From a virus, in IMG/VR virus record IMGVR_UViG_3300043465_001504, positions 1 to 22,028 of that record: DNA of 22,028 bases; one strand, given 5' to 3'. Each line of letters starts with the position of its first letter. Position 1 is the first letter of the stretch. Shown here piece after piece: positions 1,258 through 20,639 of this stretch. The translations under genes were made by a program, and so were the position numbers. Under the pieces are notes generated by a model. That model did not search any database and was not told the DNA's origin. It saw only the letters and a program-made list of their open reading frames with translations.

Positions 1258-1279
1258 GAACCCGTTAACTTAACCCTCT
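1258..1279 (+). promoter_or_regulatory. Candidate phage RNA polymerase promoter upstream of the SSB gene
   Basis: The stretch GAACCCGTTAACTTAACCCT at 1258-1277 matches 19423-19442 (GACCCCGTTGACTTAACCCT) at 18 of 20 positions, and both are followed by [C/A]T. I found this motif nowhere else in the window. Both copies are in the same orientation, in noncoding gaps, upstream of the two genes with the most optimised codon usage. That is what promoters of a phage-encoded T7-like RNA polymerase should look like. The sequence does not fit the T7 consensus and no start site can be assigned. The promoter role is inferred. Confidence 0.6.
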
Positions 1280-12791: not shown

Positions 12792-13086
12792 GTTACCTGA
12801 AGACTGGCACTTTTTTAGTACGTCTGTGGCATACTGGCGTAGTGGTGTTGATCTAGAAGAGCAAATCCGATTCCATAAAAAACAAGGTTATACGTTCCTT
12901 ATTTATCTTGTGCCATGCGCCATAGACACGCCTTATGAGGTGCTTGAGTACGCACCGCAAGTTGATGGTTCTTTTATCATTGTTAAGTACGTTGTTGAAG
13001 AAGGGCTACTTAAAGCCGGTGTAAGAAAGCGAACTTGGACGATAACAACACATCGAAATAAACAACTAAGAGGTGATGAACTATGA
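12778..13086 (+). CDS. Hypothetical protein, YAPQV family copy 2, 102 aa
   Basis: This is a paralogue of the gene just upstream: WHFFSTSVAYWRSGVDLEEQIRFHKKQGYTFLIYLVPCAIDTPYEVLEYAPQVDGS parallels the upstream copy element by element (this sentence cites the full aligned span at about residues 10-65). I place the start at ATG 12778, which overlaps the upstream stop by 14 nt and yields MHLSELPEDWHFF. An upstream in-frame TTG/ATG alternative would only add shadow sequence. A basic C-terminus (VRKRTWTITTHRNKQLRG) distinguishes it from copy 1. The 3' end overlaps the Lar-like gene by ATGA. This is also the left edge of the GC-rich cassette. Confidence 0.8.
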   Translation: MHLSELPEDWHFFSTSVAYWRSGVDLEEQIRFHKKQGYTFLIYLVPCAIDTPYEVLEYAPQVDGSFIIVKYVVEEGLLKAGVRKRTWTITTHRNKQLRGDEL

Positions 13087-13616
13087 GCGAGAAACTGTTA
13101 CCTTGTCCGTTTTGTGGGGGCGAGGCCCGCACCTTTGAATACGACGGGGCCAATCAGGCGACCTGCGGAGGAAAACATATCGACTGCGCGGGAACCGACG
13201 TTGTGGCCCCTGTCGCTATGTGGAACCGCCGCACCCCTGCACCAGAGGGGGAGGCTTGCCCGCATGACGCTTACGAAACCGACGCGGCAGGTCAGCCTGT
13301 TCGTTGCGTGGATTGCGGAATGGCTATCGCGTCCGCAGCAGCTCCTGTCGTTCCTGTAGGGGTGAGAGAGCGGGTCTTGGACGAGCTTGACGGGGCGTGG
13401 CTTCATGGTCAGCGGCGGACTCCGTGGAGACGCGATGAATCCGCCGACGCCATTATGGCCGCTTGCCAACCTGCCGTTTCGGTAGAGATGAAAGAGCAGA
13501 TTGCGTCGATTATCGAGCGCGCTATGCGTGATGTAGGTCTTCGTCATAAAGTAATCGAACTGGCGAGCAAGGACATCCTCGCAGCCCTTTGCCCTACCGA
13601 TACAAGGAGTGAGTGA
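13083..13616 (+). CDS. Lar-like zinc-ribbon protein fused to repeat modules, 177 aa
   Basis: The N-terminal about 50 residues match the Lar (restriction alleviation) type of small zinc protein: LLPCPFCGGEA, ATCGGKHIDCAG, then AMWNRR. Known Lar of the Rac prophage modulates type I restriction; whether this one does is untested. A second possible zinc pair follows (EACPHDAYE...VRCVDCG). The rest is modular: PAPEGEAC, then APVVPVGVRERVLDELDG, then a helical end VSVEMKEQIASIIERAM...DILAALCPTDTRSE. The PAPEGEA, PVVPVGV and PTDT-x-x-E modules recur in the gene at 13930, with near-identical DNA. Base composition is clearly GC-richer than in the replication genes. The ATGA overlap with the previous gene and a good junction suggest in-frame cassette assembly. 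Confidence 0.8.
   Translation: MSEKLLPCPFCGGEARTFEYDGANQATCGGKHIDCAGTDVVAPVAMWNRRTPAPEGEACPHDAYETDAAGQPVRCVDCGMAIASAAAPVVPVGVRERVLDELDGAWLHGQRRTPWRRDESADAIMAACQPAVSVEMKEQIASIIERAMRDVGLRHKVIELASKDILAALCPTDTRSE
13240..13258 (+). repeat. Direct repeat A, copy 1 (CACCAGAGGGGGAGGCTTG)
   Basis: This 19-bp sequence is identical at 14045-14063. A shorter relative, AGAGGGAGGCTTGCC, lies around 13961. All copies are inside coding sequence, reading PAPEGEA or EREAC. Confidence 0.85.
13344..13366 (+). repeat. Direct repeat B, copy 1 (encodes PVVPVGV)
   Basis: This 23-bp repeat begins CCTGTCGTTCC and ends GTAGGGGTGAG. It occurs again at 14209-14231 and 14338-14360, with one mismatch here (T instead of G at the twelfth base). 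It encodes Pro-Val-Val-Pro-Val-Gly-Val. A half copy, CCTGTCGTT, lies at 14032-14040. Confidence 0.88.
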
Positions 13617-13618
13617 TG
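13581..13618 (+). repeat. Direct repeat C, copy 1 (gene-end repeat)
   Basis: The 38 bp starting GCAGCCCTTTGCCCTACCGA are repeated at 14467-14504 with three mismatches. The repeat covers the last codons (AAL-x-PTDT-x-x-E), the ribosome binding site of the next gene and its ATG. A unit that carries a stop, an SD and a start is a ready-made junction for adding or removing genes. Confidence 0.88.
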
Positions 13619-13933
13619 ACTATAGAACCGGATAACCTGTTGGCTGTCGAGGGCGCAGAACAAGCGCGTATCTCGCCAGCAATGGGTGTCGCAATGATTG
13701 CTCTAAACATGGCGCTAAAATACCACGACATTAACACTATTCAAGACGGAACCCTTTACCAGCAGTACAAAATGGAAGGAAAAAACATGGATACGCTGCA
13801 TCTCGACCATGTTTTTGAAACGGCCCGCAGCATTGAAGACCATCTACTGAAGTCTAATGACAGAATCACTCAACTGATGGTAGATGGTGTCATTGATGCG
13901 TTAGAAGGCCTTGTCGCAGAGGAAGCAGCATGA
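13616..13933 (+). CDS. Hypothetical protein, 105 aa, lower-GC gene inside the cassette
   Basis: This protein is not recognised. AAGGAG at 13604-13609 lies 6 nt before ATG 13616 (a GTG at 13613 is less well spaced). The product is helical (ISPAMGVAMIALNMALKYHDINTI, LHLDHVFETARSIEDHLLKSNDRITQLMVDGVIDALEGLVAEEAA in part) with an acidic C-terminus, possibly a dimeric helical bundle. Its base composition and codon choice resemble the phage's own replication genes rather than the GC-rich neighbours on both sides, so it looks like a native or independently acquired gene sandwiched between two repeat-bearing modules. Its stop overlaps the next start (ATGA). Confidence 0.75.
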   Translation: MTIEPDNLLAVEGAEQARISPAMGVAMIALNMALKYHDINTIQDGTLYQQYKMEGKNMDTLHLDHVFETARSIEDHLLKSNDRITQLMVDGVIDALEGLVAEEAA

Positions 13934-14502
13934 CCCCCGACGAACTCCCCGCTGATATGGAGAGGGAGGCTTGCCCGACCTGCAACGGCGTTCGCCCAGA
14001 GTTTTGCTCCAACGCTTTCCATCTCGCATCCCCTGTCGTTCCCGCACCAGAGGGGGAGGCTTGGACTGCTCGGCACATCGTTTTTGACGGTCCGCCAGAT
14101 CACAACGGTCCTCGGTTTATCGAGGTCGAAACACCGGAGGGCAAGAGCGTCAACGCCGGGGAATGGCGGCAGCGCCCCGACAATCTGTGGGAGTTGGTGA
14201 TTGCATCCCCTGTCGTTCCGGTAGGGGTGAGCGTTGACGCGTTGGCGCAAGAAATCCGCCGTGTCGATGGGCGCCATACCCTCGGAGCCGGTGCGCTGGC
14301 AGAGGCGTTGTTGCCGTTCCTCACAGCCCTTCGCCAGCCTGTCGTTCCGGTAGGGGTGAGCGAGGAACAGCGCCAGCGCGTCGCGGAGATCGTTGAGGCG
14401 GCTATCGAGCGTCATGCGCCCGCGAACAGCATCCGGCACACGCTGGACGACGTTGACGCCATCATCGCAGCCCTTCGCCCTACCGATACAGGGAGGGAGT
14501 GA
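13930..14502 (+). CDS. Modular repeat-containing hypothetical protein, 190 aa
   Basis: I do not recognise a function. The protein is a string of modules also found in the 13083 gene: EACPTCNGVRPEFC (possible zinc knuckle), SPVVPAPEGEAW, a unique central part (HIVFDGPPDHNGPRFIEVE...GEWRQRPDNLWELV), SPVVPVGVSVDALAQEIRR, QPVVPVGVSEEQRQRVAEIVEAAIERHA, and the shared ending DAIIAALRPTDTGRE. The PVVPVGV linkers join short helical segments like beads. AGAGGA at 13918-13923 gives a good ribosome binding site. GC content is high. The shared DNA repeats show recent duplication or recombination between this gene and 13083. Confidence 0.72.
   Translation: MTPDELPADMEREACPTCNGVRPEFCSNAFHLASPVVPAPEGEAWTARHIVFDGPPDHNGPRFIEVETPEGKSVNAGEWRQRPDNLWELVIASPVVPVGVSVDALAQEIRRVDGRHTLGAGALAEALLPFLTALRQPVVPVGVSEEQRQRVAEIVEAAIERHAPANSIRHTLDDVDAIIAALRPTDTGRE
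14045..14063 (+). repeat. Direct repeat A, copy 2
   Basis: This is identical over 19 bp to 13240-13258, and again encodes PAPEGEA in frame. Confidence 0.85.
14209..14231 (+). repeat. Direct repeat B, copy 2
   Basis: This 23-bp repeat is identical to 14338-14360 and encodes PVVPVGV. Confidence 0.88.
14338..14360 (+). repeat. Direct repeat B, copy 3
   Basis: This is identical to 14209-14231; the period between the two is 129 bp (43 codons), so the frame is kept. Confidence 0.88.
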
Positions 14503-14504: not shown

Positions 14505-14738
14505 GCCGTTTTTCTGACCGCCGCGTGGGTTTTGTTCGTTCTGGCCGCTTGGCCGCGCCTGACATGGGATGACATGGAGGAGCGCCACAAGCCGCTGACC
14601 GGCTTCATTTCCGCCGTCCTCATGCCGAGCATTCTGGTTGTCGGCCCGATAATGGTGGTCGCTATCCTTCTGGCCGTTGCAGTCACTGAAGAAGGCCCGC
14701 GCCGCGTCCGCAAATGGTGGAGCGCATCATGGTCATGA
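14502..14738 (+). CDS. Small membrane protein, 78 aa
   Basis: This unrecognised protein has two clear hydrophobic helices: MAVFLTAAWVLFVLAAW at the N-terminus and ISAVLMPSILVVGPIMVVAILLAVAV (about residues 36-61), joined by a polar stretch (DDMEERHKPLTGF) and followed by a basic tail (RRVRKWW). By the positive-inside rule the tail is probably cytoplasmic. Strong SD (GGAGGGAG) lies just upstream of ATG 14502; GTG 14499 is possible but too close. It is GC-rich like the cassette and shares its 5' junction repeat with the 13616 gene. Confidence 0.72.
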   Translation: MAVFLTAAWVLFVLAAWPRLTWDDMEERHKPLTGFISAVLMPSILVVGPIMVVAILLAVAVTEEGPRRVRKWWSASWS

Positions 14739-14986
14739 CCACCCCTGACATAGCCGGTCTGTGCGAGAGGCTGAAAACGCTCTGGCTTGAACTGAACGAC
14801 GCCCACGCCAAACCGCCAGCAACCGCGCGAATAATGAACGCGCTTCACCAGAGCGGCGTCGCCCTTGAACGCCAAGCCGCTGAGATAGAGAAACTGCGGA
14901 CTACACTAGGTTATTACAGCTACGCTGATGATGGAGGCAAACGTGCTATTGCCGCCCTTAAAGGAGACACACATGACCACCCCTGA
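14729..14986 (+). CDS. Hypothetical protein with TTPDIAGLCERL opening, copy 1, 85 aa
   Basis: This small helical, probably coiled-coil protein begins MVMTTPDIAGLCERLKTLW and contains ALERQAAEIEKLRTTLG. The next gene starts with almost the same nucleotides and residues, so the two are tandem duplicates. I chose ATG 14729 because GGAG at 14719-14722 lies 6 nt upstream; ATG 14735 would give exactly the MTTPDIAG start of copy 2. It overlaps the membrane-protein gene by 10 nt and copy 2 by 14 nt. I recall similar DIA-LCERLR / AADTLERQAAEIERLR proteins in many proteobacterial phages, all without known function. Confidence 0.75.
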   Translation: MVMTTPDIAGLCERLKTLWLELNDAHAKPPATARIMNALHQSGVALERQAAEIEKLRTTLGYYSYADDGGKRAIAALKGDTHDHP

Positions 14987-15443
14987 CATAGCGGGTCTGT
15001 GCGAGAGGCTGCGGGAAACCCGTTCAGTTTGGTCTGAAGCGAAAGAAGCCTCAATCAAACGGCGTCGTAACCCCGACGGCCCCGAAGCAGCCGACACCCT
15101 TGAACGCCAAGCCGCTGAACTTGTGGAGGCCCGAACGCTCGACAAGGGTTTCAGCGAGTGGATGATCGAACGCGACTTGCTCGCGCGTGGTGAAGAAGTT
15201 GAATGGGGCGATATTGTCACCGCCCTGACTGAACATGAAATCGAGCTTACGGGGGACGACCGGCTCGTTAAGCGCCAAGCCGCTGAGATAGAGAGACTAC
15301 GGAGCGATGTAGATTTTGCCGTATCGTGTCTTTGTTCTTTGCGGAAGAACTATGCCGACGGCCTTGGTATATGGGATGACGTTGACAAAGCAATTAGCGC
15401 CCGAGCCGCCCTTACAGAAAGAAATAAATCTGATGTCGTTTAG
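14973..15443 (+). CDS. Hypothetical protein with TTPDIAGLCERL opening, copy 2, 156 aa
   Basis: This protein begins MTTPDIAGLCERLRETRSVW with AAAGGAG well placed upstream. Its body holds DGPEAADTLERQAAELVEAR, a unique segment (FSEWMIERDLLARGEEVEWGDIVTALTEHEIELTGDDRLV) and a second KRQAAEIERLRSDVD module, so the QAAE[IL] coiled-coil element occurs twice here and once in copy 1. The C-terminal about 45 residues (from 15300) are encoded by DNA of lower GC, like the rest of the phage, so the gene seems to straddle the right edge of the cassette. Its end overlaps the ligase start by 11 nt. The function is unknown. Confidence 0.75.
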   Translation: MTTPDIAGLCERLRETRSVWSEAKEASIKRRRNPDGPEAADTLERQAAELVEARTLDKGFSEWMIERDLLARGEEVEWGDIVTALTEHEIELTGDDRLVKRQAAEIERLRSDVDFAVSCLCSLRKNYADGLGIWDDVDKAISARAALTERNKSDVV

Positions 15444-19422: not shown

Positions 19423-19442
19423 GACCCCGTTGACTTAACCCT
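19423..19442 (+). promoter_or_regulatory. Candidate phage RNA polymerase promoter, second copy
   Basis: GACCCCGTTGACTTAACCCT matches 1258-1277 at 18 of 20 positions and continues ATATCTTG. It lies 83 nt upstream of the 19526 ATG. See the first copy for the reasoning; it could instead be a binding site for a regulator shared by the two units. Confidence 0.6.
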
Positions 19443-19482
19443 ATATCTTGAAACCATTTCTGCGCAGATTAGGGTAACTTAT

Positions 19483-19506
19483 ATGATAGGAATCAATACC
19501 TATCAT
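19483..19506 (+). repeat. Inverted repeat in the 5' leader (8-bp arms, 8-nt loop)
   Basis: ATGATAGG and CCTATCAT are perfect inverted arms around AATCAATA. The hairpin ends 8 nt before the SD AAGGA, so it could stabilise the message, keep the SD exposed, or be an operator. Confidence 0.7.
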
Positions 19507-19525: not shown

Positions 19526-20260
19526 ATGTCGCAACAACTGAAGCAAGTTTTCCAAGCCGCCGATGGCACGACTTTCGACACGCGTGCTGATGCTCTGGAT
19601 TACATGCGTCGGCCGCTGATCGCAGCTGCCTTCAATAAGCTGACCGCTGACAATGCGGACCTGACGAACTGGCTCATTGCTGAGCAAGACGAAATTGAGA
19701 ACGCCTTCGACACGGGTACGATTCGTCGTATCACCAAGACCGAGAAGAAGCATCTGGCTTCCGCGCTCGATCGTGTTGTTGAGCTTGCCAAGGACGACCG
19801 CAAGCTGGCCTTCCTGGCTGAGCATGCCGAAGGTCTCAAGACGACCTTCCGTTACCCGCCTGTCACGCGTATGTCGGACGACGAGAAAGCCGTTGCCGCT
19901 AAAAACACGCTTATGGCTCGCACCAACAACAACGCTCAACTGACTGACTGGATTCTGGGTAACAAGGACGCTATCCTTGCTGCCTACCAAGCCGGTGTTG
20001 AGAAGCGTGAAGTCTCGCCGAAAGCCACCGAGGCTCTGCTTGCGTACCGCATCAAGACTGCGGAAGAAAAGCTGGTCGCTTTGCGCGCCAATGCTGAAAG
20101 CAAGCCGGAAGACATCGCTGAGCTGGAAGGCAAACTTGCCGCTATGAAGTCGGGCGTTGCCCCGACGATGGCCGCACCTTCGGCTGCTCCCGCCGTGGAA
20201 GCTGAAGAAGTCGTTGAAGAGGTGGTTGAAGAAACCGCCGAAGAAACTGTCAACGAGTAA
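19526..20260 (+). CDS. Probably highly expressed phage protein with internal duplication and acidic tail, 244 aa
   Basis: I do not know a function. The protein opens LKQVFQAADGTTFDTRADALDYMRRP and then contains two related units: LTNWLIAEQDEIENAFDTG (about 46-64) and LTDWILGNKDAILAAYQAG (about 139-157), offset by 93 residues and each followed by a basic R-x-[IV]-[TS]-x-K-stretch. A coiled-coil segment follows (KTAEEKLVALRANAE...AELEGKLAAMKSG), then an Ala/Pro linker and a very acidic C-terminus (EAEEVVEEVVEETAEETVNE). Codons are strongly biased to CTG, GCC and CGT compared with the replication genes, which points to high expression. It has its own candidate promoter, a structured leader and a good SD, and is followed by a structured 3' RNA and terminator. 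I have seen similar proteins in other phages listed only as hypothetical. Confidence 0.85.
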   Translation: MSQQLKQVFQAADGTTFDTRADALDYMRRPLIAAAFNKLTADNADLTNWLIAEQDEIENAFDTGTIRRITKTEKKHLASALDRVVELAKDDRKLAFLAEHAEGLKTTFRYPPVTRMSDDEKAVAAKNTLMARTNNNAQLTDWILGNKDAILAAYQAGVEKREVSPKATEALLAYRIKTAEEKLVALRANAESKPEDIAELEGKLAAMKSGVAPTMAAPSAAPAVEAEEVVEEVVEETAEETVNE

Positions 20261-20273
20261 TCAACAAAATTTC

Positions 20274-20598
20274 GACCCAAGTGGGTCCCTCTAGTCAGAG
20301 GCTAACTGACAGTGTTAACGTCGATGGAGACACGCCTAAGCCGCGTGTCGTCAGAACTATTTGCAGGGCGTATCTTGTGTACGCTGCATGTCTAGCCTGA
20401 CTCTTAAACGAAGTGCGCTTCAATTGGAAGCACTCGTCCAGCGCGTTTAACGCACTCCTCTTGAAGGGAGCTTCACCCTACTTTGTCAAGAAAGTAATGT
20501 GGCTCTGGGACTTGACGCCTATGCTGTCGAAAGCATGAGGCTCCCTTCAAGCGGACTGCGTTCAGCCCATTGTCCAAAGTGACGGTGGGCTTTTATTT
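20274..20598 (+). ncRNA. Candidate structured noncoding RNA, about 330 nt
   Basis: No credible ORF exists between 20261 and 20639, yet almost every part can fold. Helices, in order: GACCC/GGGTC (20274-20287); CCTCT/AGAGG (20288-20301); GACACGC/GCGTGTC (20329-20349); TGCA-GG-GCGTA/TACGCTGCA (20362-20388); ACGA-GTGC-TTC/GAAGCACTCGT with bulges (20408-20437); a perfect 12-bp long-range helix CTTGAAGGGAGC (20460-20471)/GCTCCCTTCAAG (20540-20551) enclosing two 5-6-bp hairpins with related loops GTCAAG (20485-20490) and GTCGAA (20526-20531); and the final terminator. An alternative long-range pairing joins 20293-20304 with 20393-20402. It does not look like a tRNA, tmRNA or group I intron. It could be a separate sRNA or the 3' UTR of the 19526 gene. 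Confidence 0.65.
20564..20598 (+). terminator. Rho-independent-type terminator
   Basis: AGCCCATTGTC (20564-20574) pairs with GACGGTGGGCT (20581-20591) through 11 bp with two G-U pairs around CAAAGT, followed by TTTATTT. It is the strongest terminator in the window and ends the 19526 unit together with the structured RNA. Confidence 0.85.
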
Positions 20599-20639
20599 AG
20601 TCCGAAACCTAACAACCTAACCGCAAGGAGCGACCGTCT

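Follow-up and report, generated by a model that had tools for sequence, protein, structure and literature searches.

The region between gene X and its terminator in the window, i.e. the whole 22,028-nucleotide stretch of viral DNA analysed here (positions 1 to 22,028 of IMG/VR virus record IMGVR_UViG_3300043465_001504), is a real and strongly folded 3' untranslated region (UTR), which is peculiar in detail and belongs to a family of changing 3' UTRs. More surprising is a class of pseudoknots located behind stop codons, of which the window itself holds no clear copy. Within the gene-X family the gene and its promoter motif stay, and the RNA modules behind the gene change. Judged by its sequence context, the region 20261–20598 (+ strand) most plausibly represents the 3' UTR of gene X and not a separate sRNA gene, since the corresponding stretch of the relatives sits between gene X and a terminator and no promoter was found inside the region.

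Fold of the stretch behind gene X

A preliminary description of this DNA had pictured positions 20274–20598 as the longest gene-free stretch of the window and as a densely structured RNA, and both points were borne out. By a crude call of open reading frames (ORFs) the gap measures 379 nt, the longest of the window; elsewhere in the 67.8-kb contig that holds the window (G001, IMGVR_UViG_3300034093_002374) one gap of 695 nt is found. The folding energy of 20274–20598 is −131.5 kcal/mol versus −100.0 kcal/mol (standard deviation 5.8) in 100 dinucleotide shuffles, none of which reached so low a value (z −5.46), and a second set of 200 shuffles gave a z of −5.9. With the terminator removed (20274–20560) the z-score is still −4.7. 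When the window was divided into 67 consecutive tiles of 325 nt (40 shuffles each), the lowest z was −4.1 and the median −0.95. The minus strand of 20274–20598 folds nearly as strongly as the plus strand (z −5.7), as inverted repeats would lead one to expect; the plus strand is assigned since the T run of the terminator points there.

The first hairpin of the UTR begins 13 nt after the stop codon of gene X. At its other end the UTR is closed by an intrinsic terminator (20564–20598, + strand), as the preliminary description had it: a GC-rich stem of eleven pairs at 20564–20591 is followed by TTTATTT and a T-rich tail. The position of the folded region between stop codon and terminator is the same as in the relatives, and a similar terminator, CCCATTGTC..GTGGG, closes the UTR of the nearest relative, L021.

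The perfect 12-bp long-range helix reported before (20460–20471 with 20540–20551, 68 nt enclosed) could be reproduced and proved to be the core of a longer, 27-nt inverted repeat. Its 5' arm (20449–20475) and 3' arm (20536–20562), both on the + strand, are complementary at 24 of 27 positions and leave 60 nt between them. The 67.8-kb contig contains just two perfect inverted repeats of 12 bp or more whose spacer does not exceed 120 nt, this helix and a terminator-like hairpin; 20 shuffled versions of the contig contained 0–2 (mean 0.4). Between the arms, a hairpin read from the sequence (20479–20516, + strand) displays the loop GUCAAG (20485–20490), for which CUUGAC (20511–20516) is a perfect 6-nt partner, giving a candidate inner pseudoknot. 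Outside this genome, the 12-bp helix with its spacing was detected in no IMG/VR contig. When isolate phages were searched at the nucleotide level, the stretch returned short matches only, and the best one fell in the 3' end of gene X. The only other copy of 20274–20598 is the identical one in G001, and covariation is therefore uninformative for the helix.

Covariation in homologues is found for an inner part of the stretch. The element at 20354–20397 (+ strand), termed M2, is composed of three outer pairs, a UU bulge, a hairpin and a following AUGUC. In an alignment of ten gene-X 3' UTRs, window included, 97% of the cells pair and both sides change in five of the seven pairs; slid controls of the same alignment pair in 20–56%. 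As a structure predicted from sequence, M2 is thus supported by covariation over ten gene-X 3' UTRs. The final alignment omits L014, which has a long hairpin, and L067, a near copy of L066. A model built from it matches the window, itself among the rows of the model, with an E-value of 0.007. Besides the window, 11 loci have a match shortly after the stop codon of gene X, nine of which are again model rows; the two further ones are L044 (E 0.018) and L014 (E 0.18). M2 starts −3 to +14 nt from the end of the stop codon in these 11 loci and +93 nt from it in the window. The element was not detected in 39 loci that belong to other phages and to bacteria. Due to stray matches, one on the other strand of L018 (E 0.0095) and two weak ones, its specificity has to be considered imperfect.

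Gene X and the 3' UTRs of its relatives

Gene X (19526–20260, + strand) is an ORF of 244 aa, whose relatives were gathered with profiles, from 16 loci and then from 71 IMG/VR loci. Among isolate-phage records a match is found only in EBPR siphovirus 1 gp9, where the next gene starts 46 nt after gp9. Of the other relatives seen to share the gene order, IMGVR_UViG_3300037294_000176 (L011, L021) is the closest. A model of the protein based on 40 sequences is predicted to be almost all helix (mean pLDDT 87), and this fold has no match with E ≤ 0.001 in the PDB or in a viral library.

Upstream of the gene a promoter-like motif, CCCGTTGACTTAACCCT, is situated at 19426–19442 (+ strand). Its consensus CCCGTTAAATTAACCCT is a palindrome, GTTAA-N-TTAAC, between CCC blocks. 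Among 54 distinct loci, 53 have the consensus with up to four mismatches in the 400 nt that precede gene X (17 exact copies), compared with at least six mismatches in a control stretch of all 54. G001 carries five copies, all on the + strand: two in the window (1261–1277 and 19426–19442), which are the only sites of the window with two mismatches or fewer, and three at G001 positions 626, 21959 and 54041. Since a T7-type RNA polymerase is encoded in all six contigs searched (E 1.7e-63 or lower; positions 25788–27131 in G001), the motif is probably the promoter of the phage's own T7-type enzyme. A second large frame (460–1554 codons open) with weak RNA_pol matches was observed in five of the six contigs (G002–G006), G001 being the exception; there, a weak RNA_pol match lies in a frame interrupted by the contig end.

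The candidate promoter of the preliminary description accordingly stands as a motif in front of gene X; inside the stretch itself (20261–20600, + strand) none was found. This check comprised sigma-70-like sites and the phage motif, other promoter types being possible, and the nearest listed sigma-70-like site upstream, at 19695, lies within gene X.

Between motif and gene, a 5' UTR hairpin, ATGATAGG..CCTATCAT, can be read from the sequence at 19483–19506 (+ strand); L017 and others show, by eye, similar but different hairpins before gene X. The palindrome TCTGCGCAGA (19459–19468), also located between promoter motif and gene X, is kept in L011 and might be a regulator site. The 270-nt gap before gene X was considered as a second structured RNA and found unconvincing: the window gives a fold z of −1.6, L011 one of −0.6.

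In a simple scan of the 600 nt that follow gene X, 42 of 53 loci showed a terminator, 9–346 nt from the stop (305 nt in the window), and the other 11 showed none. With a promoter-like motif upstream and a terminator downstream in most loci, gene X there appears to form a unit of its own, whose 3' UTR varies in length. The family can dispense with a long UTR, as follows from the 11 loci lacking a terminator in these 600 nt and from a further 15 of the 42 in which it lies at most 15 nt from the stop. Where the UTR exceeds 100 nt (17 loci, window included), the median fold z is −2.0 versus −0.27 in the adjoining coding stretch. The window, at −4.6, ranks second after L039 (−6.9); the UTRs of L018 (−0.19), L022 (−0.62) and L084 (−0.68) show no unusual folding. 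Inspection by eye revealed CUCCU-rich stretches in the gene X 3' UTRs of L018, L019, L022 and L027, some of them in hairpin loops, which could meet Shine-Dalgarno sequences.

A pseudoknot behind stop codons

Several gene-X 3' UTRs of relatives contain units such as GAC-CU-GAGCA-U-GUC-ACAAAAC-UGCUC, which represent an H-type pseudoknot of about 26 nt, whose stems are free in sequence and whose CY and AAAC loops are fixed. When the 3' stretches of 53 gene-X loci were scanned for this general form, 16 of them yielded 22 units in total. The reverse strand gave a single unit and the final 500 nt of the gene gave none; 20 shuffles of the 3' stretches gave 0.85 units on average and three at most.

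Covariation was assessed in two tests, each of which left one stem free in the search pattern. Stem 2 pairs in 57 of 69 distinct viral units (among the stretches listed) and in 47 of 68 units from bacterial genome contigs, with about 3.6 expected in either set for even base use. Stem 1, with the usual GUC excluded, pairs in 44 of 51 contexts using nine different sequences, as compared to 2.7 expected and 0–4 for slid arms. Pairing of both stems is thus far above chance, and both are real. The viral units were drawn from at least 120 stretches, and the post-stop element was recorded in loci L088–L287 and L304–L369. Units with an unpaired stem 2 (12 of the 69 viral and 21 of the 68 genome units) were excluded from later counts, except for one separate placement count. 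As 17 of 41 contexts with unpaired stem 2 are situated within 30 nt after a stop, some of these units are probably real as well. Among isolates, close matches occur for example in Celeribacter phage P12053L, Roseobacter phage SIO1, and Lentibacter, Paracoccus, Lactobacillus and crAss-like phages. Both stems can form in all of six isolate records (three paired by eye), where stem 1 is GAC/GUC three times, CAC/GUG twice and GUC/GAC once.

The units are closely tied to stop codons. Of 150 contexts with paired stem 2, 82 begin no more than 30 nt downstream of a stop codon that ends a sense ORF of 60 aa or longer, versus 16 of 150 in antisense and 37 of 750 at random places; for the stem 1 set the figures are 23 of 44 and, in the control, 3 of 44. 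After removal of repeats by upstream C-terminus, 81 units remain within 60 nt of a stop, and the commonest spacings among them are 6 nt (14 units), 7 nt (13) and 9 nt (8). In five isolate records the unit follows an annotated gene by 7–49 nt, and in crAss-like cr7_1 by about 516 nt. The neighbour lies on the same strand upstream for 100 and downstream for 89 of 115 units outside ORFs, a count that omits 34 of 149 units lying inside an ORF by the crude caller.

The neighbouring genes are mixed. An Hsp20 match was obtained for 12 of 65 upstream proteins, and the downstream proteins include scaffold proteins, endonucleases and integrases; none of the 25 commonest PHROG families beside the units is named a toxin. 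A riboswitch for the downstream gene is unlikely, because no gene is common to either side among the 25 commonest families per list and the next start is far off after many units. As an account of the genome-contig matches, tRNA and tmRNA were discarded, with tRNAs in 10 of 56 loci scanned and tmRNA in none. Terminators are not enriched downstream of the units (5 of 185 within 140 nt versus 13 of 579 at random places), and post-stop pseudoknots elsewhere therefore need not share the job of the window UTR. As separate observations, the Rfam Proteo-phage-1 RNA (RF03044; L226:1324–1426, minus strand) and a unit are separated by 13 nt in a Thiodiazotropha contig, and in two Ktedonobacteria contigs a unit is found 38 and 11 nt upstream of a tRNA gene (L230:262–393 and L259:2244–2354).

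In the phage of the window, canonical units are present at G001 positions 23245, 24641 and 53894, on the + strand and all outside the window. Two of them follow the stops of frames open for 243 and 103 codons by 8 and 9 nt, respectively; the third lacks a stop of this kind in the neighbouring 60 nt and precedes a terminator-like hairpin and the promoter motif. Since the same scan gave three less typical matches on the minus strand, and 0–5 matches in six shuffled + strands, the number of units in G001 is not significant alone. A strict scan of 20261–20600 detected no canonical pseudoknot, and a loose scan two weak candidates, with 11 more elsewhere in the window. A weak candidate at 20514–20541 (+ strand), GAC-G-CCUAUGCU-GUC-GAA-AGCAUgAGG, found by the loose scan only, may be a divergent form of the post-stop type.

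Possible roles and known relatives

Computed features of the system are the fold excess, its position, the covariation of M2, and the covariation and placement of the pseudoknot. As to function, we give an even chance to the view that the window fold is a cis-acting end module, which closes and protects the message. Transcription would start near 19426, before gene X, probably by the T7-type RNA polymerase of the phage, read gene X and stop at the terminator (20564–20598), giving rise to a one-gene message. The long helix, M2 and the terminator hairpin would together form a resistant 3' end that keeps exonucleases from the coding region. In related phages other modules, including the short H-type pseudoknot, occupy the same place. 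The pseudoknot may be a barrier at the gene end that faces exonucleases or the terminating ribosome, a role in keeping with its position, its sense-strand bias, its free stem sequences and its mixed neighbours. A wider and more tentative proposal, to which we assign a lower probability, is that unrelated lineages (roseophages, lactobacillus phages, crAss-like phages, gene-X phages and Hsp20 contigs) share an undescribed class of phage post-stop modules acting on the last ribosome or on exonucleases, and that the 3' UTR of the window is an elaborated form that has replaced one. The pseudoknot, in which both stems covary in units from many hosts, is short, sense-stranded and tied to stops, so that a few base changes suffice to probe it in laboratory strains; the answer would help to explain how phages preserve their messages or guide ribosomes where genes end.

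The preliminary description had left two options, an independent RNA (sRNA, decoy, sponge or packaging RNA) or a stabilising 3' UTR released by RNase III. A structured 3' UTR is the better supported of these, and the independent RNAs have gained no positive evidence. A helix of 27 positions with 24 pairs has the length that RNase III requires, so that release at the long helix is possible, and the CUCCU-rich stretches seen by eye in the UTRs of some relatives could offer a liberated RNA access to Shine-Dalgarno sequences. That the 3' UTR is cut from the message in this manner to act in trans as an sRNA, sponge or protein decoy nevertheless seems rather unlikely, given a helix without homologue in IMG/VR and the absence of an Rfam match. 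Still less probable is a decoy in the manner of a type III antitoxin, directed like ToxI against a host ribonuclease and acting through the pseudoknot units seen in relatives: the units are H-type pseudoknots, several are present in some UTRs, and phage PhiTE employs ToxI-like repeats in this way, according to PMC3475682, but most units are single, their stems are free in sequence and the window lacks a canonical one. We regard this reading as very improbable.

A terminating ribosome would meet a structure placed 6–9 nt past the stop, which is where the post-stop pseudoknots peak. The element might act on this ribosome or on the coupling with the gene that follows, by slowing termination or blocking re-initiation, instead of on RNA decay. 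However, the first hairpin of the window UTR lies 13 nt past the stop and the UTR ends in a terminator; moreover, readthrough and −1 frameshifting do not fit, as in-frame extensions of at least 20 codons follow 25 of 102 units versus 29 of 102 in the +1 frame, and a slippery heptamer is found in two of 102. We consider such an action on the ribosome improbable for the window. A low probability is likewise assigned to the fold being a by-product of a long spacer with an intrinsic terminator, its structure having no further use. In favour of this account, the helix is not conserved and many relatives do without a long UTR; the fold excess outside the terminator (z −4.7), the covariation of M2 and the recurrence of folded UTRs at the same place speak against it.

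Messages of bacteria can carry an intrinsic terminator and a structured 3' UTR with REP-like stabilising hairpins. The UTR of the window resembles these in that a sense-strand fold is placed between stop codon and message 3' end, but it is much longer and branched, and has a 27-position helix and the covarying element M2, which is peculiar to gene-X phages. A known family was not recovered: in Rfam 15 the window has no match at gathering score, and three sub-threshold matches (E 0.35–2.1) all lie over the terminator end. The 12 gene-X loci scanned gave tRNAs only, the three units of L034 no match up to E 5, and the 18 of 82 genome-contig stretches scanned none to the pseudoknot units. The L17 downstream element (RF01708), located in the 3' UTR of a ribosomal protein gene in Lactobacillales and Listeria according to PMC2864571, is likewise a structured RNA in a 3' UTR; an Rfam match to it is absent here.

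With regard to the pseudoknot, one of the nearest published comparisons is STAXI (RF01728), described in PMC2864571 as a small pseudoknot with UUCG tetraloops, often in repeats of at least two, near DNA-binding protein genes of Enterobacteriales. The units are small pseudoknots as well. Of 193 units, 27 are accompanied by a second generic unit at a distance of up to 400 nt. The STAXI model matched neither the window nor the 12 gene-X loci, the 18 of 82 genome-contig stretches or the L034 units. Type III antitoxins (ToxI, CptI, TenpI) are marked by pseudoknots in tandem ahead of their toxin gene. ToxI, as described in PMC3475682 and PMC5086642, consists of 36-nt tandem H-type repeats of fixed sequence, tied to a toxin and phage-borne in PhiTE. 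Both are H-type, but the units described here measure about 26 nt, have free stems, are mostly single and follow stop codons. Like the pseudoknot of T4 gene 32, the units reside in phage mRNA; that of T4 is situated in the 5' leader and bound by the gene's own protein (PMC3014915), and the units lie after stops. A description of a post-stop phage pseudoknot was not found in the literature, a search of mostly open papers and main texts that gives weak evidence of absence; in the main text of PMC8040213, on structured RNAs of human microbiomes, the word pseudoknot is absent.

Apart from these RNAs, the window contains two adjacent ORFs (14714–14986 and 14928–15443) with the common beginning MTTPDIAGLCERL, and ORFs at 13083–14502 with a repeated PVVPVGV motif, both of them small local repeats.
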